DNA of 64,000 nucleotides from Ampullaceana balthica (Eukaryota > Mollusca > Gastropoda > Lymnaeidae): assembly GCA_944989445.1 (NCBI GenBank), contig CALYLW010001203.1, forward strand, positions 110,313 through 174,312, read 5' to 3'. Below the pieces are notes generated by a model. The model worked only from the letters and a program-made list of their open reading frames with translations, made no database searches and was not told where the DNA came from. This document shows positions 26,236 to 64,000 of the stretch, in pieces. How positions within the stretch are numbered: the first letter of the stretch is position 1; each line of letters begins with the position of its first letter. Made by a program: the position numbers and the translations under genes.

Positions 26236-26726
26236 GTATATCTAGGAATTAGTAGGGGTTTTGGGGCCCTAGGGGCTTAATCTCTTTGGGGGCCCCACAT
26301 ACATGGCGGTAGCGTTATATTTAATGTACAAAATTTCGGACACTAATTTGCCCCCCCCCCTCAAGTGGGGCCAGGGGACTTTCGAATTTTGTCTCCCCTC
26401 CCATAGCTACAGGCCCGGACTTAACAGACTCAGGGCCCCTAGGCACTTGACATTCTGTGCAAAACCATCTCGAAACTATTTTGGAAAGTTTGCAATTTAA
26501 ATTCACTAGTACAGAACATATAATTATAATTGACTTTAATTAATGACGTTAATAAAGATCAGAATAATACAGTCTATGTTACTATACTTACGTTATTGAA
26601 TAAAATTTATAGAATCCTACGACGAACTTTCATCTGTGCAAAAGAACGAATGACATCATCATAGTCAATTGACTTCATTATTTCTGACTCTATGTACATT
26701 AAATAGAGTAAATTGATCCTGTTTTC

Positions 26727-28473
26727 GCAGAATGCCACGTTTGCTGACGATCTGGCTATATGGAGTTCCGGAAAGGACGTCGCAACTCTGCAGAACAGGC
26801 TGCAGGAAGATCTGAATCGAATCGAAGACTACGCCAACCGTTGGCGCCTAGTAGTCAATACGGAGAAAACGGTCCACTCCATTTTTACAAATGGACGGAA
26901 TGCACTGAATCATGAGGTGGTGCTTCAGATATGTGGGAAAAGATTGAATTGGGATCGGACACCAACGTACTTGGGAATCAAGTTGGACCAGAAGGTCCAG
27001 CTACATAACCATGTGCGTGAATTGTGCGCCAAAGCCACAGCTAAACTGTCCCTGGTGAAGAAACTGGCTAGCACTAGTTGGGGTGCGGACGCAAGATTAC
27101 TGAGAGCTCTCTATCTCGGTAGTGTGAGGGGTGCCATTGACTACAGCCTCCCGGTCCAAGCCTTTGCGAGCCGTACGGCTCTAGAGGGACTGGACCGAAT
27201 ACAGAACCAAGCTCTACGGTTCGTATGCGGGGCGTTACGTACGACACCCACAGCCGCTGTAGAAATTATGTCAAACGTAGAAACCCCTGGCGATAAGGCG
27301 AGAAAAAGCAATCATGACCACGGTAGAGCGATACCGTAGGTTGGAGCATGACGAACCCTGCTTCCAATTACAAGACCGATGGGTAAAGAGGACCCGACTG
27401 AAAAGGCCATCCTTCATGGATACGGTCTACGAACTAGAAGACTCAGTCCCCATACCCAAGCACAGGGAACGAATGCAACTGGTCCCTGCTCGAGGGACCA
27501 CATGAGAGCTTTGACTTGCCTGAACTACGTTTGACCCTGGCAAATACAGCGGTGACGAAGGCCATGAGTCCCGTCGAGCTCAAGCGAGACGAGACTCTGA
27601 AGACAATCGAAGCTTATGGCGACAGCGTGGTAAAAGTCTTCACGGAGGGCTCACGTTTCAAGGATGGCAGAAGTGGATACGGAGTACTAATTCAATACCC
27701 TCAACCTGGACCTGACAGTATCGAACTGTCAGGGCCGTGCGGATCTGCATACAGTAGTCACGACGCCGAACTGGAGGCAATCTGTAAGGGTTTGAAGGAA
27801 GTGCGCCGACGTCTAGCTAGAAGAAAGGTTTTCCCGACTGTCGTAGTTTTCACCGACTCACGGTTTTCGCTCGAGACTGTGGGTCGATCCTCTCTGGAGA
27901 CGAAAACGGTCAATGTCATTTTGGAAACAGTAGGTGAAATCCCAGCACGAGGCGGAAAAGTAGTCCTTCAGTACATCACTGGGCACAGTGGCGAGACTCA
28001 TTCAGACAGGGTCGATAAGTTGGCGAGAGAAGGTTCAGCTCAGCCCCAACCCGATCGCCCGATGACCCAGCTGGGGGGTCAGATCGTGGCTTAAGGACCA
28101 TTTCCTAGAGAAATGGCTCCAGGGCTGGGCATCTGGAAGCACGGCCAGAAAAGTATTCCAGTACATGCCGCGACTGAGCAAAAGCGACTCCTGGTGGAAA
28201 ATTGGACGTAGCAATCAGACGCTCATAACTACAATGAGAACTGAGCATTGTCCCATACGAAGCTACTTGTACAAGTTTAACACTAGAAGGGAACTGGCCT
28301 GTCGGCTGTGTGGCCACCCGGAAGAGACGATGGCCCACGTACTCGAAGAGTGCCCCGAGCTGTGCGGGGATTTGGAAGGAGAAATAACGATACCTGCAGA
28401 GGATTACCTCTACGGCGATGCCCGCTTGATGAGGCTCGCTTGCGATAAAATGAACTGGGTCTTAAGAGCCTAA
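26727..28473 (+). pseudogene. LINE polyprotein 3' part: RT, RNase H, zinc knuckle (frameshifted)
   Basis: 26713-27339 reads FADDLAIW (catalytic Asp pair) and YLGIKLDQKVQ, the RT palm end and thumb. 27516-28094 reads the RNase H fold: the first acidic strand is VFTEGSRFKDG, where Glu replaces the usual first catalytic Asp, then AELEAICKGL and VFTDSRFSLE keep Glu and Asp, and TGHSGETHSD keeps the His loop. 28165-28473 ends with CRLCGHPEETMAHVLEEC. The three segments lie in different frames, so at least two frameshifts occurred. It is truncated at the 5' end on insertion. Confidence 0.8.
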
Positions 28474-34595: not shown

Positions 34596-37500
34596 CTACT
34601 GAAGTGCGCAAGCCTTACTGCCCCTAGCTGCTGTTGAAGCCTGCGCATTGCCATAGTTCAATGAAGCAGCCGTTTTGTTTTGAGGCTTGGCAGGTGGCGT
34701 TGGCGTCAAGTTATCTCTGAGGGTGTCCTTTGATGTGTCCTGTGGTTTCTTTTCACTTGCTTTTTTACTTCCTTCTGCTAGTGCATCCAAAATAATTGCA
34801 TTGTCATCTGAAGATTGGTTACTGGTCAGCAGGTCAAGCACTGCGGACAATTAATAACATTCAAGATCAAGATTTTATTAAATCATAGTAAACCTTATAG
34901 CCTGAAATCTCTTTTTAAAAAAATGGGTTAGATTGTTAGGTTTGTTTACAGTGAAAAAAGAAAAGTTTAAAACGTTGAGCTTCTATAAGGCATAAAATAA
35001 AAATATGAAACAAATAATCACCAACATTGCTAAATGAGATGATTAAAGATACCACAAGAATTTTGTGTGTAATACTTTGTTTTGAGGTACAGAGATTTAA
35101 ATACTGATGTAATAAATCTGTCATGTAAAAAAAAGGGTGTTAAAATATTAATAGAGCTCGGAGGCATGAAAAAAGTTGGGGACTATATGAGATTCCTAGG
35201 AAGATAATAATAATAATAAATGAATTTATAATTTTTATAGCGCTGTATCCCAGCAAGGAGCCGGGCTCACAGCGCTTTACATGGAGATAATAACATACAT
35301 ATAATAATTAAACATACACATAAGCTACGTTATTCATTAAATAGAAATGTTGTTTCTTTAATTTTGAAAATAAATTTTGAAAAGATGCGTCTTAAGTGCA
35401 GTCTTAAAGGACTTGGTAGATGAAATACTCAGACATAGCATGTTTTGTCATGTCACTTTTAGTTGATCAGTCAACACATTAGTATTTAATAATTGATTAC
35501 TGCTTCGATGTAAAGTAATACTGTATTTAGTTTTGATCATTCCCTTTCAAGTAATTAAAATCTTAACAGGTACCTAGCCCCAATGTTCCCTTCAACCTGC
35601 ATGGGTCCATTGCTGCACAGATATTTGATCTGCAGTTTAGAATTACAGCGCAGCAAAATTTGATAATAATAATAATAAGCTGTGTGTGGGGTGTAAAATT
35701 TTAGCAAAAAAAAGAAAAAAGAATGGATGCTGTTTAACTTTGCAAATGAGTATATTATTTCGCAAACTGATCAATGAACCTTAAGAACATTGAATAGTCC
35801 TTCGTCAGTAAAAAAACAACTTACTTACTTAGAGGCAGTTTTATATCGGCAGCTAGACTCTTGGCCTTTTTTCTCTGAGTGTAAGTATCCGATAGTTCTA
35901 TGTTGTCCCGAAGTTTGATGTCCTCTTCATATATGACCCTGCCTACTTCATTTCTTGATGTTGCCTCAAGACTCAGCTTTGTTATCCTGGGCCCTTCAGA
36001 ATGAGTGTCACACAGCCAGTTTATCTTTCCTGTTGCCAAGTGGCATCTGTAAGAGGACAAGGAAATTATGTCAAATATGAGAAGCAAAAATCAACAAAAA
36101 TATTGAAACAATCTGTCATTCAAAGAGCAAAACCATATATGTCATTCCTAAATTAAAAAATATTTTTTCTACAAATGCCCCTCTTTGACTGGATTGCATT
36201 ACTGTTAAAGTTTCTTTTCATATAACATTTTTAAAAAAGTTTATAAGCTGTAAAAATTATTAAAAAATCTTTAAACAAATAATTTCAGGATTCTAAAATT
36301 TAAAAGAATCTTTCCATAATAAGCATAAAAAAAGAAAGTTTATAAAAGTAGCAAACAGCAGCACCTTTTTTTCCAACATTATTTTTTTTATTTAGAACAG
36401 ACAAATGAACTCACCTCTTGAGCTGTGACAAGAAAGGCTGAGCTGAATCATCTTCTACAAGATTAGTCCTGAACGCTATATAAGAATCCAAGAAATTGAT
36501 GTTTTCCAACATGGACTGAAAAATATTTAAAAAATAATATTACAAATTTAATAGGTAACACTATTAAAAGTTGCAATACACACAAATTTAATAACCACAA
36601 CATTTTTAAATTTATTAATACATTATATAATATATATTATAAAATTTAATAAAAACAGTAAGAAGAATGGATTAATTCAGTTGACAGCATTAAACAGATT
36701 CAATTAGCTAAATTCCATGATTGACCCCAGGATTACAAATACTCAATTCAACTTTTTTGATAATAAAAAAACAACAACAGGAAAATGAGAAACCCATAAT
36801 AATTTTAATGTGTTAACAAATTTCCACATAACAGTGATTCTATTGCAGATCAAATTTAAATGTTAAAATCCACAAGTGGGATTGTTTTTAATATTTGTGT
36901 TTTGGCACCGATTCGCATGCCTTGTTTCAGTGCTTAACGCATAAAGACAATGCTGGCGATTTACTAGGGCATAACCGAGTAGACAATTTCCACTGAGTAC
37001 CGAGTCCGAGTATTTGGATGTACTATTTGCCGGATCCGGATACGAACCGAGTAGTAGCTGCGACTTAGGAGAGTACCATTTCTGTCATCATCATAAGCGC
37101 AAAGCCAAAACTGTTCGCTGTTTTCATATAATCTAAATTCTAAAATAGCTAAATAATGTTTTACCTGTTATAACTTAATAATTAATTCATATTTTTAATT
37201 TGTACTTTTAATTTTTACTTTCCGCCAGTAAGTGGCATATATCTCTACAACCATTGCAGTCGGACGGAAGTATATTAGTATAATGGCCATCGTTTGAAAG
37301 AAAGTTAGACTATGCGTGACCCAGTAACAACTGGTTACGCCACCTGCGGAATGCTACTGAAATTATCGTGTATTCTTTGCCAGCTGTTCAGTATTTATTG
37401 AATTCCATTTTCTTAATTTTAATTTATTATTTTTTTTAGCTATTTGCGTGTGTAATATTTGCCGAGGCGAATACTTCCGGATATTACCGAAAATCGTAAT

Positions 37501-40500
37501 ATTCGGCCGAGGCGAATGTCCGAGGCAATTTCCGGTTATGCCCTACGATTTACCTGTTCGATCCAAGAAGTGAATTTTGTTCCTAGTGGCCCTTCAAAGC
37601 AATTGAGGTTGACAGCACTCTGGCGTAAAATGGCAAACATCCTTGCAAAGTAAGACGAGCATTTCTGTATTGTCTCTTTCAGTTCTGGGGTCATCTTCAC
37701 TGGGTAGCTTGACTTGCAAAGGTGCCAACCCTGGTTTTAAGGGGAAAGGTACAATCATTAACTTTTTTTAAATTTACAAATATTAATTAAAATTTGAAGC
37801 TGATTAATATAATTTAACCAGGAAGTTGCTTAAAATTAGTAATTTATTATCTATTTTTAAAAGCACCTTATGAATATTTACTAAAATTAAATTATGTATT
37901 GGTTAAAAATAAAATAAATTTATTTCTAAGTATACAATATGTGAAAAAAGAATCAGAAAACATAATCAGAAAATTTACCAAGTTAGGAATAAAACTATTT
38001 TATTTAACTTTTAATTGTTCCATGTATTTTTAAATAAATGTTTTAAACTACTGTAAAATATCATAATGGTTTTTATTCTATTAGAATTTAGAATTCATTT
38101 TTCTATAACAACACAATATTAAGTTTCACCTTTTCGTCCTCACACAGTAGTTTCCAACAAAACTGTTCACTTTCCCATTGGTCATCTTCATCCTCTACAA
38201 CAGCCTGACAGAATACCAAGGGTTGAATAAGATTGAGCACATTTAGCAGAATTAAACAGTACTGAACACAAGCTGTGAGGAGAACAGCTAATAACTCAAG
38301 TTTAATTCCACTGAAAAGCTAGAAAAAGTCTACAGTGTTCCTAAGTGAACACATTGACAAAGAACAAGAACAAGAACTTCATGTTCTGGACAGCTATTCT
38401 GTAAATTTATGCTCTGCCCTCTCTCTGCACTGTCTTTCACCATGCCATGTCTTGTCATCACACACTAATTTAAGGTTAAAGTCAGAGATCTAGCTCTTAT
38501 TGACATGGTAACCAAGTCCATCTTGGCCAACAAGTGTAAACTTCGTTCAACCATGAGTTTCAAAGAATATAACCAGACAGTAACAATGACCAGATTGTAT
38601 ATCTCAGCCTAGATCTAGGGCACAATGCTACACAAACAACTTCCAGCATTGTTTTAATTACTACTGAAATGTAATTTTTAAAAGTAGTAATTAAATCAGT
38701 TTACCGTCATAAACTTTTGAGCGACTTGCAGTTTTTGGCCTAAGAGCTGGTCGCATCTTTGAATGCATGTGGCTTGTGAGACTGTCTGTGTCATTTTGGT
38801 GATCTTTCTTGTTAATCAGACGAGCTCATGACAGAAAAAAACCCAACAAAATCTTAACATTTCACACAAATGAAAAGATGAAACTAACTTTTTTTAAAAC
38901 TAAAACTCCTAGAGAAAAAAAAACTGTTATGGAAATGGTCCGCGTTAATAAAAAAAAAGTTTAAAATAATATTAATTTAGATACATATCCCCAGCATACC
39001 AGATACACATCTCCTAACATACCGGATACACATCTTCAAACATACCAGATACATATCTTCAAACATACCAGAAACACATCTTCAAACATACCAGATACAT
39101 ATCTTCAAACATACCAGATACATATCTTCAAACATACCAGATACATATTTCAAACATACCAGATACATATTTCAAACACACCAGATACATATCTCCAAAC
39201 ATACCAGATACATATTTCAAACATACCAGATACATATTTCAAACATACCAGATACATATTTCAAACATAACAGATACATATTTCAAACATACCAGATACA
39301 TATTTCAAACATACCAGATACATATTTCAAATATACCAGATACATATTTCAAACATAACATATACATATCTCAAACATGCAAGATACATATCTCAAACAT
39401 ACAAGATAAATATCTCAAACATACAAGATACATATCTCAAACATACCAGATACATATCTCCAAACATACCAGATACATATTTCAAACATACCAGATACAT
39501 ATTTCAAACATACCAGATACATATTTCAAACATACCAGATACATATCTCAAACATACCAGCTACATATTTCAAACATACCAGATACATATCTCAAACATA
39601 CCAGATACATATTTCAAACATACCAGATACATATTTCAAACATACCAGATACATATCTCAAACATACAAGATACATATTTCAAACATACCAGATACATAT
39701 TTCAAACATACCAGATACATATTTCAAACATAACAGATACATATTTCAAACATACCAGATACATATTTCAAATATACCAGATACATATTTCAAACATACC
39801 AAATACATATTTCAAATATACCAGATACATATTTCAAATATACCAGATACATATTTCAAACATACCAGATACATATTTCAAACATACCAGATACATATTT
39901 CAAACATAACAGATACATATTTCAAACATACCAGATACATATTTCAAATATACCAGATACATATTTCAAACATACCAGATACATATTTCAAACATACCAG
40001 ATACATATTTCAAACATAACAGATACATATTTCAAACATACCAGATACATATTTCAAATATACCAGATACATATTTCAAACATAACATATACATATGTCA
40101 AACATGCAAGATACATATCTCAAACATACAAGATAAATATCTCAAACATACAAGATACATATCTCAAACATACCAGATACATATCTCCAAACATACCAGA
40201 TACATATTTCAAACATACCAGATACATATTTCAAACATACAAGATACATATTTCAAACATACCAGATACATATTTCAAACATACCAGATACATATTTCAA
40301 ACATAACAGATACATATTTCAAACATACCAGATACATATTTCAAATATACCAGATACATATTTCAAACATACCAGATACATATTTCAAACATACCAGATA
40401 CATATTTCAAATATACCAGATACATATTTCAAACATACCAGATACATATTTCAAACATAACAGATACATATTTCAAACATACCAGATACATATTTCAAAC

Positions 40501-43500
40501 ATAACAGATACATATTTCAAACATACCAGATACATATTTCAAACATAACAGATACATATTTCAAACATACCAGATACATATTTCAAACATAACAGATACA
40601 TATTTCAAATATACCAGATACATATTTCAAACATACCAGATACATATTTCAAATATACCAGATACATATTTCAAACATACCAGATACATATTTCAAACAT
40701 AACATATACATATTTCAAACATACCAGATACATATTTCAAACATACCAGATACATATTTCAAATATACCAGATACATATTTCAAACATACCAAATACATA
40801 TTTCAAACATACCAGATACATATTTCAAACATAACAGATACATATTTCAAACATACCAGATACATATTTCAAACATAACAGATACATATTTCAAACATAC
40901 CAGATACATATTTCAAACATAACAGATACATATTTCAAATATACCAGATACATATTTCAAACATACCAGATACATATTTCAAATATACCAGATACATATT
41001 TCAAACATACCAGATACATATTTCAAACATAACATATACATATTTCAAACATACCAGATACATATTTCAAACATACCAGATACATATTTCAAATATACCA
41101 GATACATATTTCAAACATACCAAATACATATTTCAAATATACCAGATACATATTTCAAATATACCAGATACATATCTCCAAACATACAAGATACATATCT
41201 CCAAACATACCAGATACATATTTCAAACATACCAGATACATATTTCAAACATACCAGATACATATTTCAAACATACCAGATACATATTTCAAACATAACA
41301 TATACATATTTCAAACATACCAGATACATATTTCAAATATACCAGATACATATTTCAAACATACCAAATACATATTTCAAATATACCAGATACATATTTC
41401 AAACATACCAGATACATATTTCAAATATACCAGATACATATTTCAAACATACCAAATACATATTTCAAATATACCAGATACATATTTCAAATATACCAGA
41501 TACATATTTCAAATATACCAGATACATATTTCAAACATACCAAATACATATTTCAAATATACCAGATACATATTTCAAACATACCAGATACATATTTCAA
41601 ACATACCAGATACATATTTCAAACATACCAGATACATATTTCAAACATACCAGATACATATTTCAAACATACCAGATACATATTTCAAACATAACATATA
41701 CATATTTCAAACATACCAGATACATATTTCAAACATACCAGATACATATTTCAAATATACCAATACATATTTCAAACATACCAAATACATATTTCAAATA
41801 TACCAGATACATATTTCAAACATACCAGATACATATCTCCAAACATACCAGATACATATCTCAAACATACCAGATACATATCTCAAACATACCAGATACA
41901 TATTTCAAATATACCAGATACATATCTCCAAACATACAAGATACATATTTCAAACATACCAGATACATATTTCAAACATACCAGATACATATTTCAAATA
42001 TACCAGATACATATTTCAAACATACCAGATACATATTTCAAACATAACAGATACATATTTCAAACATACCAGATACATATTTCAAACATAACAGATACAT
42101 ATTTCAAACATACCAGATACATATTTCAAACATAACAGATACATATTTCAAACATACCAGATACATATTTCAAACATAACAGATACATATTTCAAATATA
42201 CCAGATACATATTTCAAACATACCAGATACATATTTCAAATATACCAGATACATATTTCAAACATACCAGATACATATTTCAAACATAACATATACATAT
42301 TTCAAACATACCAGATACATATTTCAAACATACCAGATACATATTTCAAATATACCAGATACATATTTCAAACATACCAAATACATATTTCAAATATACC
42401 AGATACATATTTCAAATATACCAGATACATATCTCCAAACATACAAGATACATATCTCCAAACATACCAGATACATATTTCAAACATACCAGATACATAT
42501 TTCAAACATACCAGATACATATTTCAAACATACCAGATACATATTTCAAACATAACATATACATATTTCAAACATACCAGATACATATTTCAAACATACC
42601 AGATACATATTTCAAATATACCAGATACATATTTCAAACATACCAAATACATATTTCAAATATACCAGATACATATTTCAAACATACCAGATACATATTT
42701 CAAATATACCAGATACATATTTCAAACATACCAAATACATATTTCAAATATACCAGATACATATTTCAAATATACCAGATACATATTTCAAATATACCAG
42801 ATACATATTTCAAACATACCAGATACATATTTCAAATATACCAGATACATATTTCAAACATACCAGATACATATTTCAAACATACCAGATACATATTTCA
42901 AACATACCAGATACATATTTCAAACATACCAGATACATATCTCATACATACCAGATACATATCTCCAAACATACCAGATACATATCTCCAAACATACCAG
43001 ATACATATCTCCAAACATACCAGATACATATCTTCAAACATACCAGATACATATCTCAAACATACCATATACATATCTCAAACATACCAGATACATATCT
43101 CAAACATACCAGATACATATCTCAAATATACCAGATACATATCTCAAACATACCAATACATATCTCCAAACATACCAGATACATATCTCCAAACATACCA
43201 GATACATATCTCCAAACATACCAGATACATATCTCAAACATACCATATACATATCTCAAACATACCAGATACATATCTCCAAACATACCAGATACATATT
43301 TCAAACATACCAGATACATATCTTCAAACATACCAGATACATATCTTCAAACATACCAGATACATATCTCAAACATACCATATACATATCTCAAACATAC
43401 CAGATACATATCTCAAACATACCAGATAAATATCTCAAACATACCAGATACATATCTCAAACATACAAGATACATATCTCAAACATACCAGATACATATC

Positions 43501-46500
43501 TCCAAACATACCAGATACATATTTCAAACATACCAGATACATATTTCAAATATACCAGATACATATTTCAAACATAACATATACATATCTCAAACATACA
43601 AGATACATATCTCCAAACATACCAGATACATATTTCCAAACATACCAGGTTTTTCAAAGTCAATAACTATCAATCGTGGTGTTGGGAAGGAGTCCTTAGA
43701 ACTGATGTACGTGATGATGTGTCTCATAAATTTTCTCTGGATCAACTCAGACTCTTCCTGTAGAGTCATAGCATTGTTTATATAATATTATATTTATAGA
43801 ATATTTCTAACTTAATTTATTACAATTCTACTTTGACTGAAAAGCTAAAGTAAAATTGATAATTTATTGTACACAAATTTAGATTTTGCACACAATTGAA
43901 GATTTACAACATTTAAATGTTAATATAAAAAAATACATTTTCAAAAGTAGCTGTATATTGCAAATAAATACAGTCGGACCTTGCTAAGTTGACCTTCACT
44001 AAGTCGAAAACCTCCCTATATCAAATCAATTGTTAGTTCCCGGCCAAATTCCGTAAGACAAAATTTATTTTAGATCTCCCAAACACAAAGATTTTTTGGT
44101 TTCCAACCTCCATTAGTTGAATTTTCCAAGGGGTTTCGGTTATTATTCTGGAGCGAAATTTCAGAACACGTGTTCTGTAGAGCCGGGTAAATTGATGCAA
44201 ATTCTTATCTTAATGCATTCCACAAGGGATTAAGCGGCTTTTGCAAGTGGGATGTCTATTTTGAGACAGAAAATGACCAAGACAAAAAAAAGGAGTAGCT
44301 GGAAGAAGGGTAACTAATCCGCGTCCCTTTGCTGCAAGCTGTGACTCTTTTTAAAAAGAAAAATGTTACTTCCCCCCATCTCACTGTGGAAGGAGTAAAG
44401 TGTGGAGAGGAGGGGGTGGGGAAGGTGTCTCCTCTCACAGGCTTACTCAGTGGTGTCGGTATGTCAAAGCCAAGTTGGCTTCCTTTCATATGAAACATCA
44501 GATGCCGCCTCACTTTCCTGTCAAGCCTTCTCGCTGGCATGGCTGTCTCCAATCATATTTTGTTTATTCACTGATTCGAAAACTCCATAAGTCAAATTTT
44601 TCTTATCGGGTCTCTTTGAGTTTGAATTAGCAAGGTCCGATGGTAATCACTGAATGTATTTAATTTTTCCACCCAATTTGACATTTGATCTTCATAGACA
44701 CATTCCCATAAAAGCAAGGTTTAATCATAATTTTTACAACTTTCAGTTCAATTATTTTATGCGATTAAAAAGATTTGATTTAGAAACATTAACAATGATC
44801 AAAACTTGACCTGGATGGCAGTGTTGTCTGGCACAGAGGTGAAAGTTTTCTTTTTTTCTACTTTGTTCTTCTCTTGTTCTTGAACAGCTTTGAGGTTTTC
44901 TTTCACAGCTCTTTTGGCAGTCATCTGATCAGCATTCTCGGGCAATCTCTTTCTGCCAAAGATTTGAATGTAAACTTATTTAGTTTCAAGAATCAGACAC
45001 ACAAAATGAAGGTATAGCAAGATACATGTTAAGGTTCTACATGTATATATAATACTATATTTTAGGGGTGTTAACGATTAATTTAAATTTAATCGTTAAC
45101 TTTTGAAAAATTAATTAATAATTAATCGTTAATTTCAATTAAAGCCAAAAATTGAAATGTATGGTGTCACACGTAATATTTATTAAACAAACTTGTTGAA
45201 AATCGAAATAACACTGGAATGTCTTCTTTATTTGACATCTTTTAACCAACAACGCAAACAGACAAGTGTATTGACATTATTTGGTTCAAGTGATGAGCGG
45301 GTCTTATTGACAATATAACCAGCCGAGCTGAACAATCTAGCTTTAGATTGTTTAAGCTAAAGTTTCTGATACTGTAGTGGATGATTGGTTTGCAGGTGAT
45401 ATGTAAGGGAAGTGTTAAAAAACATAGTAGCAATGTTCCCTTTAAGCAGCGCGGCTGCGCATATATTTGACCGACACCAAGCAGGAATTTAGAATCACCA
45501 CGCAGCATATTTTTTAAAATATTGCACACAAAATTGGACGTTGTGCCACTTTGCACACGAGTTGTTGTTTTTTAACTGTGCACACGACCAACGAAGCTTA
45601 GACTTGGGAACATTGCATTGTAGGCAAACAATTTCTCTCAATTAGACACAATAATCTTTATCAACATTTTGAACATTCACGTCAGTCATTACTTTAAAAC
45701 CAAAATGTCCCTGTAATCGTCCAGAAATTAGTGTATATTTATCGGCTGAAATAGTTTACTTTTTTTTACTTCCAGTACATTTATAAGTGGTGGGTCGATT
45801 AATCGTTAAAAATTTTTTAATTGTTAAAATATTTTAACGATTAATCGAGAAATTAATCTTTAATTTCCGCAGCCCTACTAAATTTTAAGACATTCAATCT
45901 TGTATACATCATTTTTCATCAGTTTTGATACCTTATAAAATTTTCCAAAACATTCAATGCCTCTGGATTTTCCTGCTGCATGTAAACCCTCTCAGCATTA
46001 GCTCTAGTGGCCAAAATACCCACCTGTTGAGAAAACATAAAATTTGTACTTCATTTATGGTATCATTCTTTTGTTTTTACTGCTATGAACACTTTCATTA
46101 TTGCAGTGTTTCTCAAATAGTGGGGGCGCGCCCCCCAGGGGGGGTGAGCGAGGCTCCGTAAAGGGGGGCTCATTTGACCGTTATGCAGAGGAGTACTTAT
46201 AACAATTTTATAGACAAATGATACTATTTACAGTCGTGCAGGGGGCGCAAAATGTTTTCTTTCTTCCTAGGGGGAGGGGGGATGACAGAAAATAATTGAG
46301 AAACACTGCATTATTGTGTTGTAATAGTATTTCATTCAAATATGTAAAACAAAAATTTCACACTAAGCTGATTTTCACAACAGCCATCTATATATATATT
46401 TTTCACCTAAACAAGCATGTGCAAATGAGCATGATGAATGACCCTCGCTGGGTCGACCGATCACTGTTGGCAAGCATAGTGGGATGAAAAGAAAAAAAAA

Positions 46501-49500
46501 GGGGGAGGGGGGGCAACAATTTTTCTTGCGTAACTAGCTGTGTTCCTTCACAGAATAAAATGTGATTCGTAGTGTAGTGGTTATCACGTCCACATTGCAT
46601 GCGAAAAGTCCTGGGTTCAAGCCACAGAGGGAACATTAAAAAAAATATTTTGCTTCTGCCCATTCTTTATTCCCCTTTTTTGCGAACATGTCTAACCATC
46701 ACTAGAGTCAAGCAATCAGAGTTTATGGTTGGCAAGGGATGGTAGTACAGGGTGGGGGGAAGGTATCAACCAAAGTGCACATGTACGCTTTTTTTTCTCC
46801 ATTACTTAGTGCTGCTGTATGTGTCCGTTCTCTCACCCCCCCCCCGTTCTTTGCACTATCTATGATGAGCAGGTCTGCGGTGTAAGTTACGCCGCGGGTC
46901 GTATCTAGTTTTAGTAAATAAAACAATAAATTTTAATAAAAAGATTTTTCAGCTTTAAAAATTAGCAATATTTATTTTTTAAAATCAAAGGTATAATTGA
47001 TCAATACATATATATCTTTATATTTATTTAACTGACTCTATGTCGTCATCAAAAATGTAATAGTTAACTGTAATTCAATTTCTTGTAAGAGTTGCTGCTA
47101 TTTCACCTCTGATTTTTTCCATTCTCTTCCAGTACCAACAACTACAATAATGGTAGGTAACTCTAGTGTCAAGACACCAAATCTCAGCTCCATCATGCAG
47201 TTATCTGACTTCACATACTGGTTAAAAAATAAAAATAAAATGTGTGAGATTTTATTTCTAAAAGTTTTAACATAAACCTTTTAGTAACAGATATGAAATT
47301 TATTTCACTAGAGATGTTCTTTAAAAATATAGAAAATATTCATTCCCTCACCTCATCTGAGACAAACGCCACCAGAACTTTAGAATTTCTCATCCCCTCA
47401 GAAATTGTTTTGAATAAACCTTTTCCCTGAAAATAAAAAAAATCATTCAAAATAACACTTAAATTTATCTTTGAAGTATTTTCAATTTCTTATAATCATA
47501 AGTGTTTTTAATTGCTATTTGTATCAAATATTTAAAATTTTTAAAATGCTACTCACTGCAGGTGGTTGGTCGTAATCCAACCAGCAGGAAAATCCTCTTT
47601 TTTCCAAATCAACCTTGACCTGACGCGGGTCTCCCCAACCAAGGGCAGCTTGGTCTGCCTTAGTTCCCCTCTCTACAGCGTGTTTGGAGTTGCTCCATGA
47701 GTAGCTAATGAAAACACTGGGATGTTTCTCGAGCTGCAGCGAGTATTCAAAAAAATAAATAAATTATTAGCATTGAAAAATTTGTACAAGCAGCAAATGA
47801 TATTGCACTTAATGAATTGCTAACTCACCAATTTATTACTCCACACGTTGCAAGCAGCCATATTTTCTAGAATATTCTATGTAAGTACCAGACATTTATT
47901 ACCTGTTGTTGGTTTAATTTGAGTTTGCTTTTGACAGTTGCCACCAGTTGCTGGATTCTGTCCTCATTATATCTGTCTTTGGTTCTAATCATCACCATTT
48001 CCTACATGATCAAAACTTTTACATCTAAAATTTACTTATAATATGTTTTCAATGCAAGGTAAAATTAAATAAACTGAATTAAAAAAACTTAAGTCGAAAT
48101 CTAAATTAGAAGGATATTTCTTCAACTAAAGCTGCGTCATATTATGGTAGGTATTATTGCTTGGTTTGCGTAAGAGTTTATATTCATTTGTTATGCACAT
48201 TTTTTATATTTACTTTTAAATTGTTGTTTTTTTCCTACTAGTTTTTTCACTAAAGAAGATGAGCAATGACCTTTCTTATGTATTTCATATCTAAAAAAAA
48301 TTTTTGAAATTTTTATACCTCTTGATAAGACTTTGGTATATTGTACACTTAACCAATTTCAAAGTAAAATAAACATATTTTGAAAATAATCTTCTCAAAA
48401 ACATAAATAATTGTTTAAAGACAATCAAAACTAAATATATCAGATGAAGAACTAAATACCAATAATGTGAAAAATTTGTGAATTAATTTTTTTTACTCTC
48501 TATCACTATATAATTTCTGAATTATACACCGTTATTCTGTTGATTTTTTCCCTTCAAAATGCAGCTCACCTCTTGTTTTCCAATCCTCATTCCCAGATCA
48601 GTTTTCTGCCACTCCAAGCTCTCTCCAATGACAACGATGCAGAAGTCTTTATGAAGTGTGTCAATGGCATATAAAACATGGTCATTGGATCTCAGATCTG
48701 ACTCAAAGTTGTTTGAGACCAAAGCGACCACAACCTTTTAACAAAGAAACAGTAAGACATACAACAGTCGTCCACAGCAGTGCATATGTTATAATAAAGA
48801 TATTGATTAATACAAATTAAGATGCATGAGTAAAAGAAAAAAAAATGAGTCAGATGAATTGCAACCAAAAAAGATTCTTACACAGAATTCCTCTTGAATG
48901 TGTAGCATTTGTATGTTCTAATGAATAATTAAGGTGTTATTACATGGAAATCTATCAATTTTTGCAGTTTTTAGTCCATTTTGATGTTTTTCTTTAAATG
49001 ATTTACTCCATCCCCCTCACACCATTCCATCAGAAAAAACATCTTAATTTTAATTTTAGAAGCAAAGTTACCTTGCAGTTTTTGAGAGCTAACATGACAT
49101 CTTGTTCTGACACAGACTCCATATTATCAGAGAGCCAGCTGAAAATACAAGAAATTTGAATATTTTATCAATTTGAAATTCTTTTAAATCAGTGCTTCTC
49201 AAACTTTTTAGTATTGCGGACCGGCAGGAATTTTTTCCATTGCACCAGGGACCGGTCAACTATTTTCCCTGTACTAACGTGGTAGCGAAATGTCCTTTCC
49301 TTGTAACATCTGCGGACCGGCATTGGATGGCCCACGGACCAGCACCGGTCCGCGGACCACCAATTTGAGAAGCACTGTTGTAATTAATATTCAAAATGTT
49401 ACTCTAACTATAATTGTCAAAATTGATTTTAAAAATATTTTCAATTATTTTAAAAGCTGATAATGAAAATAAAAATTTCTTAATTTGTCTTCTTATCTTA

Positions 49501-52500
49501 TCTTCTATAGAGTATTAATGCCTGTAACCTACATTATTGCAGATTCTATTTCTATAAAGAAGATTATTGCATCCTTCACTTATCCATGGTATGTATCTAG
49601 GGTTGAAATTCATTAGAGTTTTGATTGTTGATAGTGTTTTTTAATTTCCATACAAATCCTATCTGGATTTTGAAAGTCTATAATGTATGTAATCTAACAG
49701 CTCATTATTTAAATTTTAAAATAAAATATTTGCTGGCTGTGCACTTCAGTGAAAGCCCCACTGGACCCGAATTTGTGTTAAATTCATGGTCTTACCATGA
49801 TATTTTGGCTGCTTCAAGATCCTTCTTAATCTGTGCAGGGTTCAATTGGGTCTTGTGGTCATCCCCTACTTTATCTTTGGCACTGTAAATAATGGTGACG
49901 TCTGTCGACAGAGCAGAATTGAGCTGCTGCATGACTGTTAGACTGTGCTGCAGCTGAGCATCAATGTCTGACATACCATCTGATGGCATACCCTCTGTAG
50001 AGTTGATGTCAAACAATTGTTGGAAAAAAAATCATTGGGTTTTAATGAGATATTTAAAATGAACATGAAAAAAATTTATGAAATGATTTAAATATTATCG
50101 CTCTAAGGAAGAATAATTTTTATAGTGAAGTTTTAGCAGCAATGATTACCAACAAGCTGTGACATAGAAATAGTGTGGAAGAACTTTCTACATTGTAGAA
50201 ACGGAGCCCTGTTATCTCGTGCTAGTTTGATCAGACTTCTTTCAAACATGGCAGGATCAAGTGTGCCCTGAATGGATTGGAAGAAAATTTTTTCACATCA
50301 ATAATGTGCCACTGTTACATAGATGCTACACATATAGTTATAAATAAGTTATAATTTGATTCATTGACATATTTAAGCTGATTTGGTTAGAGGTTTGCGA
50401 ATCCTTAATCTCTAAGTTGTGTGAGACAGTAATATTGACTTAGATTTGATTATGACGATCCCATTGAAATAATTTGTGTGTACCAACCTCTTTGAGAACA
50501 CAGTCAGGGCATGGAACCAAAAACTCATAGACGACTCCATGGAAGGATTCCTCTATCAGGGACTCAAAAATTTCATGAATGAGAAAGATGACATTTTCAG
50601 GTCTGGGGCCCTTGACCTTGACCTGCAGCTCACAATCGCTGGTGGACAACAGGAGTATAAGAAATATTTGTACACTTATACGACATCAGGATTATAAGAA
50701 ATGTTTGTACACATATCCAATTTTCCGTAAATCAATCACATTTATAGATAACATTCAAAGGTGTGTTTACATATTTAACATTACAATGATTAACCTGAAA
50801 AGTTGAAAATAAATACATATTTTACAGAAAAACATTTTCACTAAAGAAAAAAAAATCTCATCAGTTGCCTTTTGTTATTTGCAGTGTAATTAGGGCTGTC
50901 AATATTGTTGAAATATGCTGCCCGGGTACCCGTCCAAATTTCGAATGGGTACTCGGGTTACCCGATCGAAACATCGCATAATTTTCCCAGTCATGACCAC
51001 TATACAAAGCTACCTAGCCACCTTCCATGCACTTCATTTCACACAGTAGCTACACGGCCGGCCTTTTAGGGGCCGTACAAAAATGATGTCATGCGATTTT
51101 GGCTGATTACACGTCACAGGTTGTCACAAAAACTTAAAGCCCCCTCCAATATGACGTCACAAAGCTTTACGCCCCCCCCATAAAAGATGTACTTCCTGTT
51201 TGAAAATGAGCATATGTCAACTTTATTGTCCTTTAATTTTGTATTTAATGTGAAGTTGAACTCTAAAAATCGCTACACGCTTAAATCCGTGTAAAACATC
51301 ATTAAATAAATTGTAAGCAATCAAATATTTTAGGGGAACTTTTATTTAAAGTTGCGCGTTTTGATGTGACGTCTTATCTTATCTTATCTGTTTACAGACA
51401 CTCCTTCTATACAGAAGATTATTGCGTCCTACGCTTATCTATGGTTTGTGTTTAGTCCTGCATTTTTATTAGAGATTTAAATGTTGATAAAGTGTTGGTT
51501 TTCCTGGATTCTTCAGGCAACCCATTCCCCGCCCGAATTCCGGACGGGAAGAAGGAAAACTTGTATGTGTTTGTTCTTGCATACGGAATAAGAAAGGTGT
51601 TTTTATCCTTATGTCTATCTGAGGGTTGTATTAAGCTATCTTTGTGTTGTATTTCTAAATTAGAATTAATTGCTTTATGTATAATTAATACTTTGCTCTT
51701 GGTTCTTCTATCCTCACATTTATTCTTAAACACATCCCTCCCCCTCGTCACAAATGTGTGACCCCCTCCTCCCCTAGGTGTGTAACGTCATTTATTGACG
51801 GGCCCTTATCCATCTTACACTGTTAGTAATAGTAACTAATTTATTGACTTTAAAAAATTACACATTTTGGTGTATTATTAAAAACAGTTTTTGGGCAAGG
51901 CACACGCTGTAATGAACACACGATACACAATCGAATGGAAGGAGGAGGGGTAGATAAACAACATCACCAATCGTAAACCCATTGTCGGCGTATTTCAAAG
52001 ATCAAAGTTAGTTTCAAAGCAGGGGTGTTTTTATTAACGGTTCCCAGGTACCCGTTGACAGGCCTAATTGTAATATCGTTTTTTTTAAAAAAACAATCAT
52101 TTTAAAAGTGATTTAAGTTTTAACTTTGAGGTTTGTTCTAATGTACATCATCCCTAGTGCAAACCCATCCCAAATTTTGTTGCTTTAATAAATTATGTCA
52201 AAGTTAGATTTGCTTTCAATGTTGTTTGCTAATAAAGTGAACGTTTGCAGTCAGGCTATTGGGAACACCGATTCTAATTAAAGCAGAGAGTTGATACTGC
52301 AGGTAGGACGGTGGCTTCTCATTTAACAAACACCTTGTTTGCAGAATCAGAGCTTCATGTTTGTTCTTTTTAAGCAGCGAGCCTCGCTTCCATATAAGCT
52401 TCCCGTCTGATAACTGGAAAAGTCTGACCTGAAAGTGCAGGTGCAGGAAAAAATATATTAATATGTTGCAGGGTGTCCAAGAAAAAAACGTTTTAACTTT

Positions 52501-55500
52501 TACATAATTGAATTGCGAATCTCAAAGCAAAATATCTTTTTGAAAGTTTTATGCCGCTTAATATTTCCTTCTTTGTAATAGGGAAATAAACATCATGGTA
52601 GAAAATTAAATAAAAAACTATTGTGACTTTTAAACAAACCTGAGCTCTGTTGAAGAGACCTGCTGGCAAGTAAGAAAACTGGTAAACAAGCTTTGTCTCC
52701 TTCTCATTCTTAGAATGGTCAACAAGTGTCCAAGTCAGCTAAAAAAAAATCAAAAAAAAATTCTATTATAAATATATGTTGATAAACAGTGGCAGGGGCG
52801 AGATGGTCGAGTGGCATGCGCGCTCGGCTGGCGTACCGATGGTCACGGGTTTGAATCCATGTGAAGGCAAGGATTTGTTCGCGGGGCCTAGGGCGTCCCT
52901 TATGAACAAACGGGCTATAGAACGATTATACACAATAAATATAATAAATATATGTAAAAACACTAAATTATGTCATAGTGTTGAAATGTGGACAATTTAT
53001 TTTATTTTTAAAACATTATTTAGCAGACAATTAAAGTTTTTTTCTCCGTATTGTAGGCTATATTTTATAAAGTTATGGGTTATATTTAATACACTTATAG
53101 GCTATATCTAATAAATAAATGTATAGGTTATATTTCTATTTTATTATAAGCTCACATCACTTGGCACTTCCTGAGGAAGTAGACATGGGACAATGTTCAC
53201 TGGCTCTTCTGGGATGGGAAATGTCAAATCAAACTGTTCAGTCAGTTGTAACAACCAGTGGTGTAGGTTCTCAGGGTAGTCATGCCATATTTCTGGTATG
53301 TACTTGTGAAGGAAACGACCATGATGCTCCTGACAGATGTTTAAATTAAAGCCATTAACTGCTGAGGTAATAGCGGATACTCTGTGATATAATTTATGTT
53401 ACTCATGTGGAGATATTCATTAGCAATGTTCATTAATGTTATTTCCTTGTATATAATATGCAGGAGACCACATAAAGTACTGTTATTTCTGGTATAAATT
53501 TCAATCATTCATGATTTTATGTAAAGAAAAAAACAACAAAAAACATTGGCACAGATAAAAATTCCAGAATTAAAAAGAAATGATAAAGAAAGAAGTGATT
53601 TTTTAGTGGATATAATTAATTGTTAACACAGGAATAAATGCATGACGTTTGTGGTTAAATGAAATTTATTCAATGTCATGGTTAACCTTTGACTTACTTG
53701 TATTTGTGAATTTTTAATAGACATAACACATGAAATGACATTTGACTTAATTGTAATGGTCAATTTTAAAAGACACAATGCATGACATGACATTTGACTT
53801 GTATTGGTGAAATTTTGACAGACACAACACATGAAATGACATTTGAATTAATTGTATTGATGAATTTTTACATACACAATGCATGAAATGACATTTGACT
53901 CACTTGTATTGGTGAATTTTTGACAGACACAACACATGACATGACATTAACTATCCACTGAGGGTTGATGACCACCTGTTCCCTCAGGAACTCATTGTCA
54001 AAGTACTGCACGGTGCCAAGCTCATGCAGGAACTGGATAGCTTCTCGAATCTTAAGTCAGATGTTAAAAAAAAATTTATTTTAACAGATCTAAGTTTATA
54101 CATTTCGTATATCCAATTTTAAAGATTTGCCATTTTTTGGGGGTATAATTTCCTTATTAAGTTGTGATCATATGTTAATTCAATTATAAAACAACACAAC
54201 TGGTATTATAAACAATTATATGTCAGTTTCACTTACATCTTTCTCATCATAGATGCCAATATTCATGCCATATTCTTGTATAAATTTCCAAGGTAGAATA
54301 CTGGTCTTAGAGCGATCTCTAATTTAAAAGATTTGAAATTTGGGCATTAAGAAATTTCACAATCGAAAAAATAAACAGAATAAAAATTTTCGAAAAATAA
54401 AACACAATTTAATGTATGAAATACTTAGCACCAACATCACTCTTTCAGCTTCTTTAGTACAAAACATTTTAAAGTAATTCTGATATGATTTATTAAAATT
54501 GCTTTAGCTCACCCCAGAATTTTTTTCTCCAAGTCAAGCCAGACTTTAGGAACTTTCTCCCCCATGTTTTTCTGTTCCAGTGTCACACGGAGGAGTTCCT
54601 CTTCCAGTTTTTGAATGCCCTGATGGTAGTTTTAAATTAAACAAATTTAATTCACACTTTTTGGCAGAAAAAAACCTATAAGAATGATAGTTCCCAGTAT
54701 GCAAGAGACAAATGATGCTGCTGTCACAGTTGCTTAAGAGCTTGCTGGGGTTCTGTGCTTTATAAGTTCTTAAATAATTATAATAATTGTTAATATTCTT
54801 TAGGGGTCTACCGATATGCATTTTTGCCGATATTGCCGATACCGATATTACAGATATTTTTTTTGCCGATATGAGTATTTGTTAGGACAAAAACCAGCTG
54901 TCATATTTGATGACGTCATTCCTAAATTTATCACTCGTAATTATTTATATTTCAATTAGGGGTCTACCGATATGCATTTTGGCCGATATTACCGATATTT
55001 TTTCCCGATATGAGTGCCAATATGAGTATTTGTTAGGAAATAAAATAACAGCAGTCATATTTGATGACATCATTCTTAAATTTATCACTCGTAATTGTTT
55101 ATATTTTATAATTTAGGGGTCTGCCGATATGCAGTTTTGCCGATATTACTGATTTTTTTTGTTGGCCGAAACGAAGTTTCTGATATGTTTGAAAGTTCCA
55201 ATTCTTATCTTATCTGTTTACAGACGCTCCTTCTATACAGAAGATTATTGCGTCCTACGCTTATCTATGGTTTGTGTTTAGTCCTGCATTTTTATTAGAG
55301 ATTTAAATGTTGATAAAGTGTTGGTTTTCCTGGATTCTTCAGGCAACCCATTCCACGCCCGAATTCCGGACGGGAAGAAGGAAAACTTGTATGTGTTTGT
55401 TCTTGCATACGGAATAAGAAAGGTGTTTTTATCCTTATGTCTATCTGAGGGTTGTATTAAGTTATCTTTGTGTTGTATTTCTAAATTAGAATTAATTGCT

Positions 55501-58500
55501 TTATGTATGATTACTACTTTGCTCTTGGTTCTTCTATCCTCTAGTGTTTCAAGGTTTAATGATTTAACTAATGGTGTTACTCTTGTCAGTTTCGAATATT
55601 CTCCAGTAATGAATCTGGCAGCTCTTTTTTGAATTTGTTCTAGTTTATCAATGTTTTCTTTGGTGGATGGGTCCCATACAGAAGATGCATATTCTAGTGC
55701 AGGTCTCACCAAAGTGAGGTAGCATTTTAGTTTTATATCTCTATTACATTTGTTAAAGTTCCTTTTTATAAAGCCTAAGGCTTTGTTTGATTTTTTAATA
55801 ACTTCATTGACATTGGGATTTCATGATAGTTTCTCATTTATTAAGACTCCTAAGTATTTTGCATCTTTAGTTTGGGTCAGTTCTTTTCCATGAATGTAAT
55901 ATTTTGAATTTATTTGTTTCTTTTTCTTTGTTACTCTTAACAGTTGACACTTTTCTGGATGGAAAGACATACTCCAGTTAGTTTCCCATTTTATCAATTC
56001 ATCTAAGTCTTTTTGTAAAATTTTGCTATCTTGTTCTGATTTAATTGTTCTATAGATTATACAATCATCAGCAAATAACCTAACTTTTGTACCTGTTGAG
56101 ATGTTGTTGGGTAAATCATTTATATAAAATAATAAGAGTAAGGGACCTAGCACAGTTCCTTGTGGAACTCCTGAGTTAACCTTTATTGGTGCAGATTTAG
56201 ATCCATTAATTATTACAGTTTGCTCCCTGCCCAAAAGGAAGTCTTGGATCCAGTGATGTAAGGAACCTGAGATTCCAAAGTAGTTAAGTTTTTTAAGTAA
56301 ACTAAGGTGGTGAACTTTGTCAAATGCTTTTGAGAAGTCTAGTAATATTGTATCTATTTGATCATTTTTGTCCAAGCCTTTTGATAGTTCATCTATTAAA
56401 CCTATTAATTGTGTTTCACATGATCTGTTTTTTCTAAAGCCGTGTTGATGTGGGCATAGGGCATTATATTTGTCAAGGTGGTTAACTATTCTACTATATA
56501 TTATGTGTTCTAGTAATTTACAGGTGATACTAGTAAGTGATACAGGCCTGTAATTACCAGGGTCTGATTTATCATGACCTATATAAGACTCATGACAAAA
56601 CGAACCGTCCTTTATAAAAATGTACAAGCAAAATTAGGAACTCCTTTTGAAACTTTAACTCATAATTATTAATTCTAACCAATAGTTTAATGGCTTTTGC
56701 ATACGGCCACCTTTTATGAATGAAACAATGAGAACAACGTATTTGTAATAGAGTGAAAATGAGGTTGAAGGATCAATGGTTGCCAATGACAACAAGTCTG
56801 CACACGGTAAATTTTGTTATTCCATTCGAAACTAAATGTTTTAGACATCTGTGATTCTGCGTGCATCTTTGCTATTATAGCAATTACGTCAACATATTGT
56901 TTACATGTTATCCATTTATTAGAGCAATTACGGTATACTTGGCATCGGCACTAGTTACACAGTATTTCCGAGTATACGAAAATTGGCCGATACCTAAACA
57001 ATATCATAGCACATGGCATACTGTATCGTGACTGTACATATTAATACTAGGACTCTTTTGGCTATTTCAATACCGGTATCGGGGTCGATATAATAATTTG
57101 TCGAGATATTGTAAATCTAATGATAGGGTTTTTTCGTGTTTTTTTTTGACATAAAAAAAAATATCGGTGACGTCAATATCGGGATCTTTACATGCTACCG
57201 ATATATCGGTAGACCCCTAATATTCTTATAATCTCACTTTTGCACTTTATTAATTGAAGGAATTTTACAATACTTGTTAACTAAAATTATATTTGTTTTT
57301 ATAATGCTGGGGCAATGAAGTTATCTTATCTTATCTACACAGACGCTCCTTCTATGCAGAAGATAGTTGCGTCCACAGACCATGACAGATAATCTGTTGG
57401 CAAGTGATGCAGCGTTCACAGGCCACGGCTTTGTGGGTTCCACGCATTATCCAGCCGCCTAACTACATGTAGTGTTAGGTACCCATTCGGAGCTGGGTGA
57501 CTCAGGGACGCCCTAGGCCCCGGGAACAAACCCTTGCCTTCACACGGATTCGAACCCGTGACCATCGGTACGACAGTCCAGTGCGCTGCCACTCGACCAC
57601 CGCGTTGATTAATTAAAATTTATTTTTTTTATATAAGACTGAGTATTTCAGTAAGACCCAAATAATTCTCCACACTATAGTATTAAAAAATTGTGACTGA
57701 CTTACAATTCCTTCTACAGAGCTCACAAAGTGGAAGCCAGCTATTTGAGGATATCTCTCCTTCAGATCAACCATTGGGATATCAGCTTTAGGAACCTATG
57801 CCGTAAAATATGAACCAATAAACATATTAAAAATGTTTCATTAAAATGCTGATGGGGTAATTATTTAAGTCTACTACAGTAGCAATTAATATTTGGGATG
57901 GCATTTGCTTGACAAATGACATATACATAAAAACAGTTATTCTAAAATTATTTTAGGCAACTGAATCATATTTCTATAGGCAGACTAAAGAATGCATCCA
58001 TACAAAATTATTGCCATAAACATTTTACTAGTTACATCTCATCTCTTTAATCCCACCTCTTTAAAACCATCAACACATAATCCTCATACAATATGGATAA
58101 CATTTTTTTTCCCCTCTACGTTACTGATAAAAATTTCTGCCATTTAAAAGCTGATCTCCCACCTGATCACAGTGGGTCCCCACAACAAAGATGGGTGTGT
58201 TAGGGGCATGACTGGCTATTGAACTGAGCCAGAATTCTAGACCTGCGTGCTCAAACCCTTGCCTGGTCGACCACAACAGGAGGTACACGGCTCGTTTGGA
58301 CAGGAAAAACTGAAACAATAAGAAGATGTTTGATTTAATGCAGCTCAACATTTATATGATGTCTAATTATTAAACAATATAATTTGCAATTGTCACGCTA
58401 GTAGTGTCTGTCAGTCAGTCCTGACGCTACTAATTTTAGAAAGCAGGGAAAACCAAATTACTGCACCAATGCATCAAAAGGTGTGCAAATTAAAGATGCG

Positions 58501-59407: not shown

Positions 59408-59899
59408 CTAAATTTTTTTTTAAAAAGAAAGACATTGCTGATCAATTTAAATAAAGTGTAAACAAGTAAAAAAAAAGTTAATTTAAATAGCAATTCCCTT
59501 TTTATTTTGATCATAATTACTTCATTGAGTTTTGTTAGACATGATATGAAAATGATTTGTGTGCTTACAAAAATTAATGTAATACATCTATTTGTCCGTA
59601 AATAAATATAAATATTATCACACAATTTTGTTGTTTATCTTGTAGTTTATTTGAAAGCCTTATTGCAATTCCATTCTATTTTAAGTTTTGTTATACGATT
59701 TTAATAAAATAAACTGATTGAACTTATTTTTTTTCCACAGATACTTCAAAGCCATCAAAATCTTGAAAACATTTAATGGAAATAAAATTCTATGTATATC
59801 CAGTGACAAAATATAAATTTTTTGTTTTATTTTTCTGTTATTTTAACTGCAAATTTTAAGAACTGTTACAAAATGTTTCAGTGTAGGTTTAATTGTATG

Positions 59900-62800: not shown

Positions 62801-64000
62801 AGTGTGCTATAACGGTGCCACCTCAGAGGCTTTCCCAGTAAGTAGTGGAGTAAAGCAAGGCTGCGTGTTGGCACCTACTCTATTCGCAATATTCTTTTCC
62901 ATCTTACTCCAGTATGCCTTCAAGAACAACAGCGAGGGGATATACATACACACCAGAGCTGACGGGAGATTATTCAATATTGCCCGACTTAAAGCCAAGA
63001 CCAAAATAAGGAAGATTTTGCTGTGCGAGCTCTTATTTGCAGACGATGCCGCCTTAATATCCCACACAGCAGACGGCCTGCAGAACCTGGTATCCAACTT
63101 CTCCGCTGCCTGCAAAGAGTTTGGCCTGACCATAAGTATAAAGAAAACCAACATTATGGCACAGGATGCTGCCTCTCTCCTGACTATCACCATTGACGAC
63201 TGCAACCTGGATGCTGTTGACAGTTTTACTTATCTGGGATCAAACATCTCGAGCACCCTCTCACTGGAAGATGAGATAAGTAGTAGGATAGGGAAGGCAG
63301 CAACTGTTATGGCTAGACTGTTCAAAAGAGTCTGGTCCAATGCCAAACTCACAGCAAGGACTAAGCTGCAGGTATACCAGGCCTGCGTACTGAGCACACT
63401 CCTCTATGGATGCGAGTCATGGACCACCTATACCAGGCATGAAAGAAGGCTCAATAGCTTCCACCTCAGATGCCTGCGCCGCATCCTAGACATCAAATGG
63501 CAAGAGAAAGTCCCCAACACAGAGGTCCTGGCTCAAGCAAGCATGAGTAGTATTGCAGCAATATTAAGCCAAAGATGCCTCTGTTGGCTTGGACACGTCA
63601 AGAGGATGCAAAGTGGTCGCATACCCAAGGATGTGCTTTACAGCAAGCTGGCGACAGGGAAAAGGTCGGTTGGTCGGCCATGTCTCAGATACGTGGACAT
63701 ATGCAAGAGAGACATGAAAGTAGCCAACATTGATATACAAAACTGGGAAAACCTGGCAGAGGATAGGTCCACGTGGCGGGCTATAGTGAAAGAAGGATCA
63801 CTAAGAGCAGAGGAGCAAACTAGGGCAGAAGCAGTCGGGAAAAGGGCGAGGAGAAAGGCCAGGCAACACTGCCCCACTGCTTTCGTGTGTGTGTCATGCA
63901 GAAAAGACTGCCACTCAAGGATTGGTCTCATCAGCCACACCAAGAGCTGCAAATAATAAAGATAAATCTATCGTCTTTCGTAGACGGACAGATGCCATAC
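59900..64000 (+). mobile_element. APE-type LINE (RTE/Proto-like), nearly full length, runs to the window edge
   Basis: A GC-richer block inserted upstream of the Roco exons. It has a long 5' leader (about 59900-60583), an endonuclease-RT coding region and a 3' untranslated start after 63956. Its composition contrasts sharply with the AT-rich intron. The leader has an open frame at 60264-60566 that could be a relic of ORF1 but shows no known motif. Clade is uncertain: there is no RNase H and the C-terminus has a zinc finger. Confidence 0.85.
60584..63956 (+). pseudogene. LINE endonuclease-reverse transcriptase, one ORF split by a 46-bp duplication
   Basis: The first part (ATG at 60584) is the APE endonuclease: LASWNVRTM, LQETRLPESG, LLGDFNARVG and CDTDHSLVV keep the Asn, Glu, Asp and His positions. 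The second part (to the stop at 63956) is the reverse transcriptase: GKAPGNDGIPPEVLKCG, FVDLTKAFD, GVKQGCVLAPTLF and ELLFADDAALIS, followed by a thumb and CVSCRKDCHSRIGLISHTK, a Cys/His finger. A 46-bp segment at 61969-62014 is repeated at 62015-62060, shifting the frame; without it a single ORF of about 1,108 codons would run through. No other defect was noticed. Confidence 0.85.

Follow-up and report, generated by a model that had tools for sequence, protein, structure and literature searches.

A minisatellite of 211 units spanning a splice donor in a Roc-COR-TIR gene of the gastropod Ampullaceana balthica

We analyzed a stretch of 64,000 nucleotides from the gastropod Ampullaceana balthica (GenBank assembly GCA_944989445.1, contig CALYLW010001203.1, positions 110,313 to 174,312 of the forward strand), hereafter the window. 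It holds, on its minus strand, a gene for a Roc-COR-TIR protein, one intron of which is almost entirely occupied by a minisatellite, array A, that starts at the splice donor of the preceding exon. Pfam Roc, COR-A, COR-B, and TIR_2 matched in the joined exon pieces of this host gene, and its four protein matches are all gastropod: Aplysia (P0001, 54%), Elysia (P0002, 51%), and Patella (P0003) and Lottia (P0004), with 41% each. The 3' end was placed by eye, since the final ...KACALQ resembles the ...KTCVLQ of Aplysia, and the 5' part probably lies beyond the end of the contig. The features of this part of the window are as follows (splice junctions are marked by a slash).

34599..59418, minus strand: host gene of the Roc-COR-TIR protein, exons spread over the stretch, outer limits approximate
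43646..43757, minus strand: exon EESELIQRKFMRHIITYISSKDSFPTPRLIVIDFEKP, ending in phase 1 at the real donor CCTG/GTATGT; Aplysia homologue P0001
38825..43645, minus strand: intron holding array A, 4,821 nt, 97% array
38979..43648, minus strand: array A, putatively donor-grown minisatellite, 211 units of 22-23 bp (two of 21), CTG/GTATGTTTGAAATATGTAT on the gene strand
38705..38824, minus strand: next exon, (A)RLINKKDHQNDTDSLTSHMHSKMRPALRPKTASRS..., acceptor CATGAG/CTCG

Tandem Repeats Finder (TRF) reported array A in the window at 38979-43648, with a period of 22, 211.1 copies, and 93% matches, and our own segmentation gave 211 full units of 27 types with 2 bases over. The first unit begins at 43648, three bases within the exon, whose last base is 43646. 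The array thus spans the exon-intron boundary: its unit has 3 exonic and 19 intronic bases and opens with the last three bases of the exon and the donor. An earlier note on this DNA had described a minisatellite of ~4.7 kb and ~210 units starting at the exon/intron junction, and both its size and its starting point are borne out. The next exon, which the same note had put near 38204, lies elsewhere. The Aplysia protein P0001 reads ...RLIIIDFEK VAKGVVKK... where the window reads ...RLIVIDFEK P/ARLINKK... over the splice, which backs the exon end and fixes the next exon at 38824-38705 and the intron at 4,821 nt. The commonest unit, CTGGTATGTTTGAAATATGTAT (n=76), has 76 exact occurrences in the 1.1-Gb assembly, every one inside array A, so that the insertion of a dispersed satellite at the junction is unsupported by this exact-match search. 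With up to two mismatches there are 181 matches in the window, all within array A, and 0 in 100 shuffles. On the plus strand, the array has open frames of up to 465 aa, from which we infer no gene. On the gene strand, readthrough of the exon meets a stop 53 bases into the array.

Many of the units carry a splice signal. The bases -3 to +6 of the real donor, CTGGTATGT, recur exactly in 115 of the 211 units, GTATGT is found in 140, and the GT at +1 is kept in 182 (183 of 210 decoys in a second segmentation). The field of decoy donors that the earlier note saw behind the real one is therefore correct as a description of the sequence. For the 115 matching units, the predicted pairing with U1 (-5.3 to -7.2 kcal/mol) is at least as strong as for the real donor (-5.3 kcal/mol). 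Each inner donor would either put the next exon out of frame or come after an in-frame stop, and, judging from the reading frames, the conserved protein of the host gene would require the exon-proximal donor.

A second, syntenic copy of window 32807-59451 is found on contig C2417, with identities of 84-98% in the aligned blocks that begin outside array A; the synteny ends at window 32807. The two copies agree in the exon end, in the donor, and in the unique bases that follow the array (CTAAATTAATATT). However, the intron of C2417 has only 390 nt and nine units, seven identical CTGGTATGTTTGAGATATGTAT and two CTGGTATGCTGGAG. Hence, the unit count is 211 in one copy and 9 in the other, in a comparison made within one assembly. 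The two copies are probably paralogues, not proven alleles, an unpurged allele being less likely; in the neighboring PARP-like stretch, no further copy above 88% was found among the 7 candidates scored. Toward its edges, array A is closer to the unit form of C2417 than in its core, which has drifted to AAATATGTAT and contains runs of up to 24 units that recur exactly, a difference that growth from within would be expected to produce. Since C2417 shares the donor and the array borders but holds nine units, the ancestral donor probably expanded in place, and the comparison gives a picture of one ancestral short array at the donor that grew from within in the window copy. By reading, one distant paralogue (C94) carries a phase-1 intron at roughly the corresponding position, its donor being unrelated, and another (C43) lacks an intron there, which suggests that the intron of array A is probably old and the array young.

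We also note two peculiarities of these copies. In C2417, an insert of ~37 bp splits the last two units (CTGGTATGCTGGAG) at 36680-36760 (~1294-1332 of the fetched stretch L009); it includes a TTGTTGTTG run on the plus strand and is flanked by ~20 repeated bases. In the window, exon 38824-38705 has an extra A (TCAAAAG) relative to C2417 (TCAAAG in L015), whose frame resembles Elysia (RSKIMSVVLED). Either the assembly slipped here, or the copy is frameshifted, or another acceptor downstream absorbs the shift.

Arrays of this type are not restricted to one donor. The host gene has a second one, array B, which starts at the donor of its own exon, spans the exon-intron boundary, and also has five copies in C2417.

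53904..54050, minus strand: exon IREAIQFLHELGTVQYFDNEFLREQVVINPQWIVNVMSCVVSVKNSPIQ, whose 3' end and donor would have seeded array B
53688..53948, minus strand: array B, putatively donor-grown minisatellite, 5 units of ~52 bp, 45 exonic bases (NVMSCVVSVKNSPIQ) plus GTGAGTCA

The unit of array B combines 45 exonic and 8 intronic bases, and its coding bases are identical in Aplysia. The distant paralogue C94 has an array ACTTGAAAG/GTGAGTCTATC of 35.8 copies after the exon ...KLER, which joins CLLPSGK much as QLHR joins CHLPTGK in Aplysia. In an ABCA gene on contig C1, arrays with 20 exonic bases per unit follow two successive donors: a 41-bp unit, in 6.6 copies, after ...ENKLTVNY, and a 33-bp unit, also in 6.6 copies, after ...TLVLTSH. 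The first of these exons has no Pfam match, but its likeness to human ABCA3 extends to residue 1536, and that of the second begins at 1537; in the intron of the first donor, an array of 66-bp units reaches the acceptor. An EB/EGF-like exon, only probable as an exon given a weak Pfam match below the cut-off, is followed by 34.2 copies of a 29-bp unit with CAG/GTAAGT. Finally, three arrays lie in myosin genes (L058, L070, and L083, the last continuing to the end of the fetched stretch). Counting each pair of window and C2417 once, this makes nine donor-grown arrays in the genome. The units of the eight arrays other than A hold 9 to 49 exonic bases, and among these arrays are some that copy conserved coding bases. 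In the eight, the GT is kept in 100 of 104 decoy units, array B keeping it in 2 of 4. Two myosin arrays have array-free siblings with the same exon end and a single donor, L076 for L058 and L071 for L083. In the L058 pair the sequence matches again after the array (by eye), which shows growth in place from a single donor. By reading, the exon-proximal donor and the next exon give the conserved protein in array A, in C94, and at the first ABCA donor. The first decoy would lead to a frameshift or an in-frame stop in nine of nine arrays, no more than chance might give.

Acceptors are affected too. A pair of myosin siblings, L077 (contig C719) and L078 (contig C208), share an array that spans an acceptor, with a 78-bp unit including ~38 coding bases (TYTGSILVAVNPY); the siblings have 2.1 and 4.0 copies. 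Among the 20 exons taken with their flanks on both sides, these two have the array, probably through one event. In the stretch L021 of the C94 paralogue, two further arrays (gene strand 3783-4351 and 8490-8609) have units with acceptor-like ends (TTGTTATATTTCAG; TTGTTGTGTTCAG), and one of them lies directly before a real acceptor; they are possible acceptor-grown arrays. Together, junction arrays are found at 5' and 3' boundaries of several unrelated genes: Roc-COR-TIR, ABCA, the EB/EGF-like exon, and the myosins.

To assess how common such arrays are, we surveyed exons of two other families. For myosin, we took 40 stretches, half of 80 matches and none with internal stops, and dropped two that have no clear donor (L068 and L080); the first batch passed over matches with long open frames, and the second includes seven with frames above 400 aa. 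For kinesin, we took 20 stretches from 127 matches in rank order, leaving out matches with internal stops or reaching the end of the profile. The survey is small, its stretches were picked by homology, its donors were placed by eye, and several come from sibling genes (C208/C719), so that not all are independent. Arrays cover 3 of the 38 myosin donors and 0 of the 20 kinesin donors (3/58 overall), and 6/38 and 5/20 of the intron positions at +200 (11/58). Donors are therefore not preferred sites of array growth, merely not wholly spared, and ordinary intronic array growth is enough to explain the rate. In the host gene, a spanning array is present at 2 of the 23 donor places in the window, these places being taken from tblastn ends, some approximate. 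We also searched the genome for AGGTAAGT repeated three times at a spacing of 5-35, and obtained 4272 matches vs 3412 for the reversed pattern. This excess of tandem donors is unconvincing, since the two control strands differ by 830. Yet the 3412 tandem triples of even a reversed control 8-mer show that the genome is rich in minisatellites. At least seven arrays are present among the listed AGGTAAGT matches. For six of them we read the 5' end on the gene strand, which is at an exon in L043 and L044 and at no visible exon in L048, L050, L052, and L053. Many arrays of the genome sit within introns and touch no junction.

In our view, array A is very probably a minisatellite of the kind called a mirage, produced by a blind tandem duplication across the junction and subsequent expansion to 211 units. 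Its position, its unit, and the borders shared by the two copies can be read off the sequence, and so can growth in place from a single donor in the two myosin genes with array-free siblings. The origin from a splice donor proposed earlier is supported by the same borders in both locus copies and by units that carry the junction. Other arrays that copy conserved coding bases, two of them with array-free siblings that have a single donor, add to this. The case that the earlier note held would refute it, an array without the donor motif at its border, was not found in C2417, the one close relative compared. A chance likeness between border and unit is unlikely, since C2417 has the same border and eight other arrays (that at the EB/EGF-like exon being only probable) likewise start at an exon end. 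Slippage, or the joining of ends at short repeats, would first have produced a short tandem duplication over an existing junction. It covered the 3 exonic and 19 intronic bases, which have the direct repeat CT...CT at their flanks. Slippage or unequal exchange may then have expanded it to 211 units. If the spliceosome uses the exon-proximal donor, the extra copies downstream would leave with the intron and be invisible to selection. The same process appears to have acted on several other junctions of this minisatellite-rich genome, acceptors included.

Some observations weigh against this account. In array A, the variants fall preferentially on the donor bases (106 of 1888 donor cells vs 60 of 2730 others), which pure neutrality would not predict, and which could reflect a few amplified mutations. 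The retention of GT in the decoys of the other eight arrays indicates that decoys are not decaying in general and that array A is the exception; selection against decoys, which array A alone suggests, is not what the others show. As mentioned above, C43 lacks an intron at the place of array A and the donor of C94 differs there. Four of the six AGGTAAGT arrays whose 5' end was read start at no visible exon. Among the copies compared, there is no array-free sister of array A, whose single-copy ancestor is thus a reconstruction.

The array may instead have arisen inside the intron and reached or converted the exon border later, its likeness to the donor being secondary. The overlap with the exon is indeed just three bases (CTG), and many arrays of the genome lie within introns, clear of any junction. 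However, the border is the same in both copies of the locus, and the Ala residue encoded across the intron, the G of its codon being exonic, is present in the Aplysia protein too. Furthermore, the units of the other eight arrays, with their 9 to 49 exonic bases, cannot derive from an intron, and we consider such an origin improbable for array A. The array could also be a functional regulator of splicing, its decoys sequestering U1 or producing frameshifted isoforms subject to nonsense-mediated decay, in a length-dependent manner. The many decoys identical to the real donor and their predicted U1 pairing are compatible with this, and in human IFI6 repeat units farther downstream serve as donors (PMC4526556). 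Yet the copy number differs from 9 to 211 between the two locus copies, similar arrays at unrelated genes and at acceptors resemble general turnover, and regular splicing seems undisturbed by the mirages of amphioxus (PMC3087553), which together make a regulatory role very improbable. An assembly error, in the array or in its length, has in its favor the difficulty of assembling long arrays and the suspicious extra A of the next exon in the window. It is hardly credible, however, since the units, of 27 types, follow one another in an ordered mix in which runs of up to 24 units recur exactly, and a second contig has the same borders.

An IFI6 minisatellite at an exon end was reportedly described by Turri, Cuin and Porter in 1995, and introns from tandem arrays are said to have been treated by Zhuo et al. 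in 2007. The closest known systems are the mirages of amphioxus, minisatellite-like duplications of exon-intron boundaries, both 5' and 3', which apparently leave splicing unharmed and are reported in Adh3, the globins BflGb6 and BflGb9, troponin C, and PGBD5 (PMC3087553, PMC3902484; Canestro et al. 2002 as cited therein). As in these genes, many units of array A carry splice signals and several unrelated genes of one genome are concerned; the copy number, variable in amphioxus, may vary likewise. In contrast, the host is a mollusc and the array has 211 units, compared with 6 and 3 in the haplotypes of BflGb6; the difference in length separates two probable paralogues, not proven alleles; and normal splicing was verified by RT-PCR in amphioxus, whereas array A is known from DNA. 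The minisatellite of human IFI6 (6-16) likewise provides several alternative donor sites (PMC4526556), but its downstream units are used, whereas inner donors in array A would give a frameshift or sit past an in-frame stop. Human segmental duplications harbor variable internal tandem repeats, some at exon-intron boundaries (De Grassi and Ciccarelli 2009, PMC2812944). These minisatellites of ~30 bp, at boundaries of young paralogues and varying in number between paralogues, resemble array A, but they are tied to the gain of new introns, whereas the intron of array A pre-existed. Similarly, a tandem duplication crossing an intron-exon boundary led to intron gain in the potato RdRp gene (Ma et al. 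2016, PMC4974935), while at array A an existing intron grows. Among the papers listed by our search of the open-licence literature, none reports junction-spanning minisatellites in molluscs. A 27-bp minisatellite of abalone with ~62 repeats is intronic, no junction being mentioned in the excerpt (PMC6905558), and for Conus introns the excerpt gives simple repeats only (PMC3862624). Hence, array A is of a known kind, found here in a mollusc and at several genes.

The remainder of the window includes a macrodomain/PARP14-like open frame, named by eye, at 15408-19565 and on the same contig at C1203:67967-109044, with DNA copies at 82-88% on that contig. Open frames resembling LINE reverse transcriptase/endonuclease, by eye only, are found at 60527-63956, 55278-56633, 11106-12346, and 26707-28473. 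The frames 60527-62113 and 61998-63956 overlap, and an exact duplication of 46 bp (61969-62061) lies in the area of the overlap.

Tandem growth across splice junctions might be a habit of the whole genome, in which maybe one donor in about twenty is followed by near-identical decoys (up to 211 units, in some genes perfect to the consensus) and splicing survives through a strict exon-proximal rule. We see the arguments for this broader view as evenly balanced. The pattern shows that introns can lengthen at their ends, with no apparent harm, and that duplicated AG/GT junctions, a proposed raw material for new introns and exon extensions, accumulate in the genome. Dozens to hundreds of near-identical donors after the real one provide a sharp test of splice-site choice: as the local sequence hardly separates the donor sites, the choice must depend on position, exon definition, or kinetics. 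The two copies of the locus, with 9 and 211 units after the same exon, are a ready-made dose series. If the genome-wide habit is true, this genome would be a natural experiment on the choice among many identical 5' splice sites.

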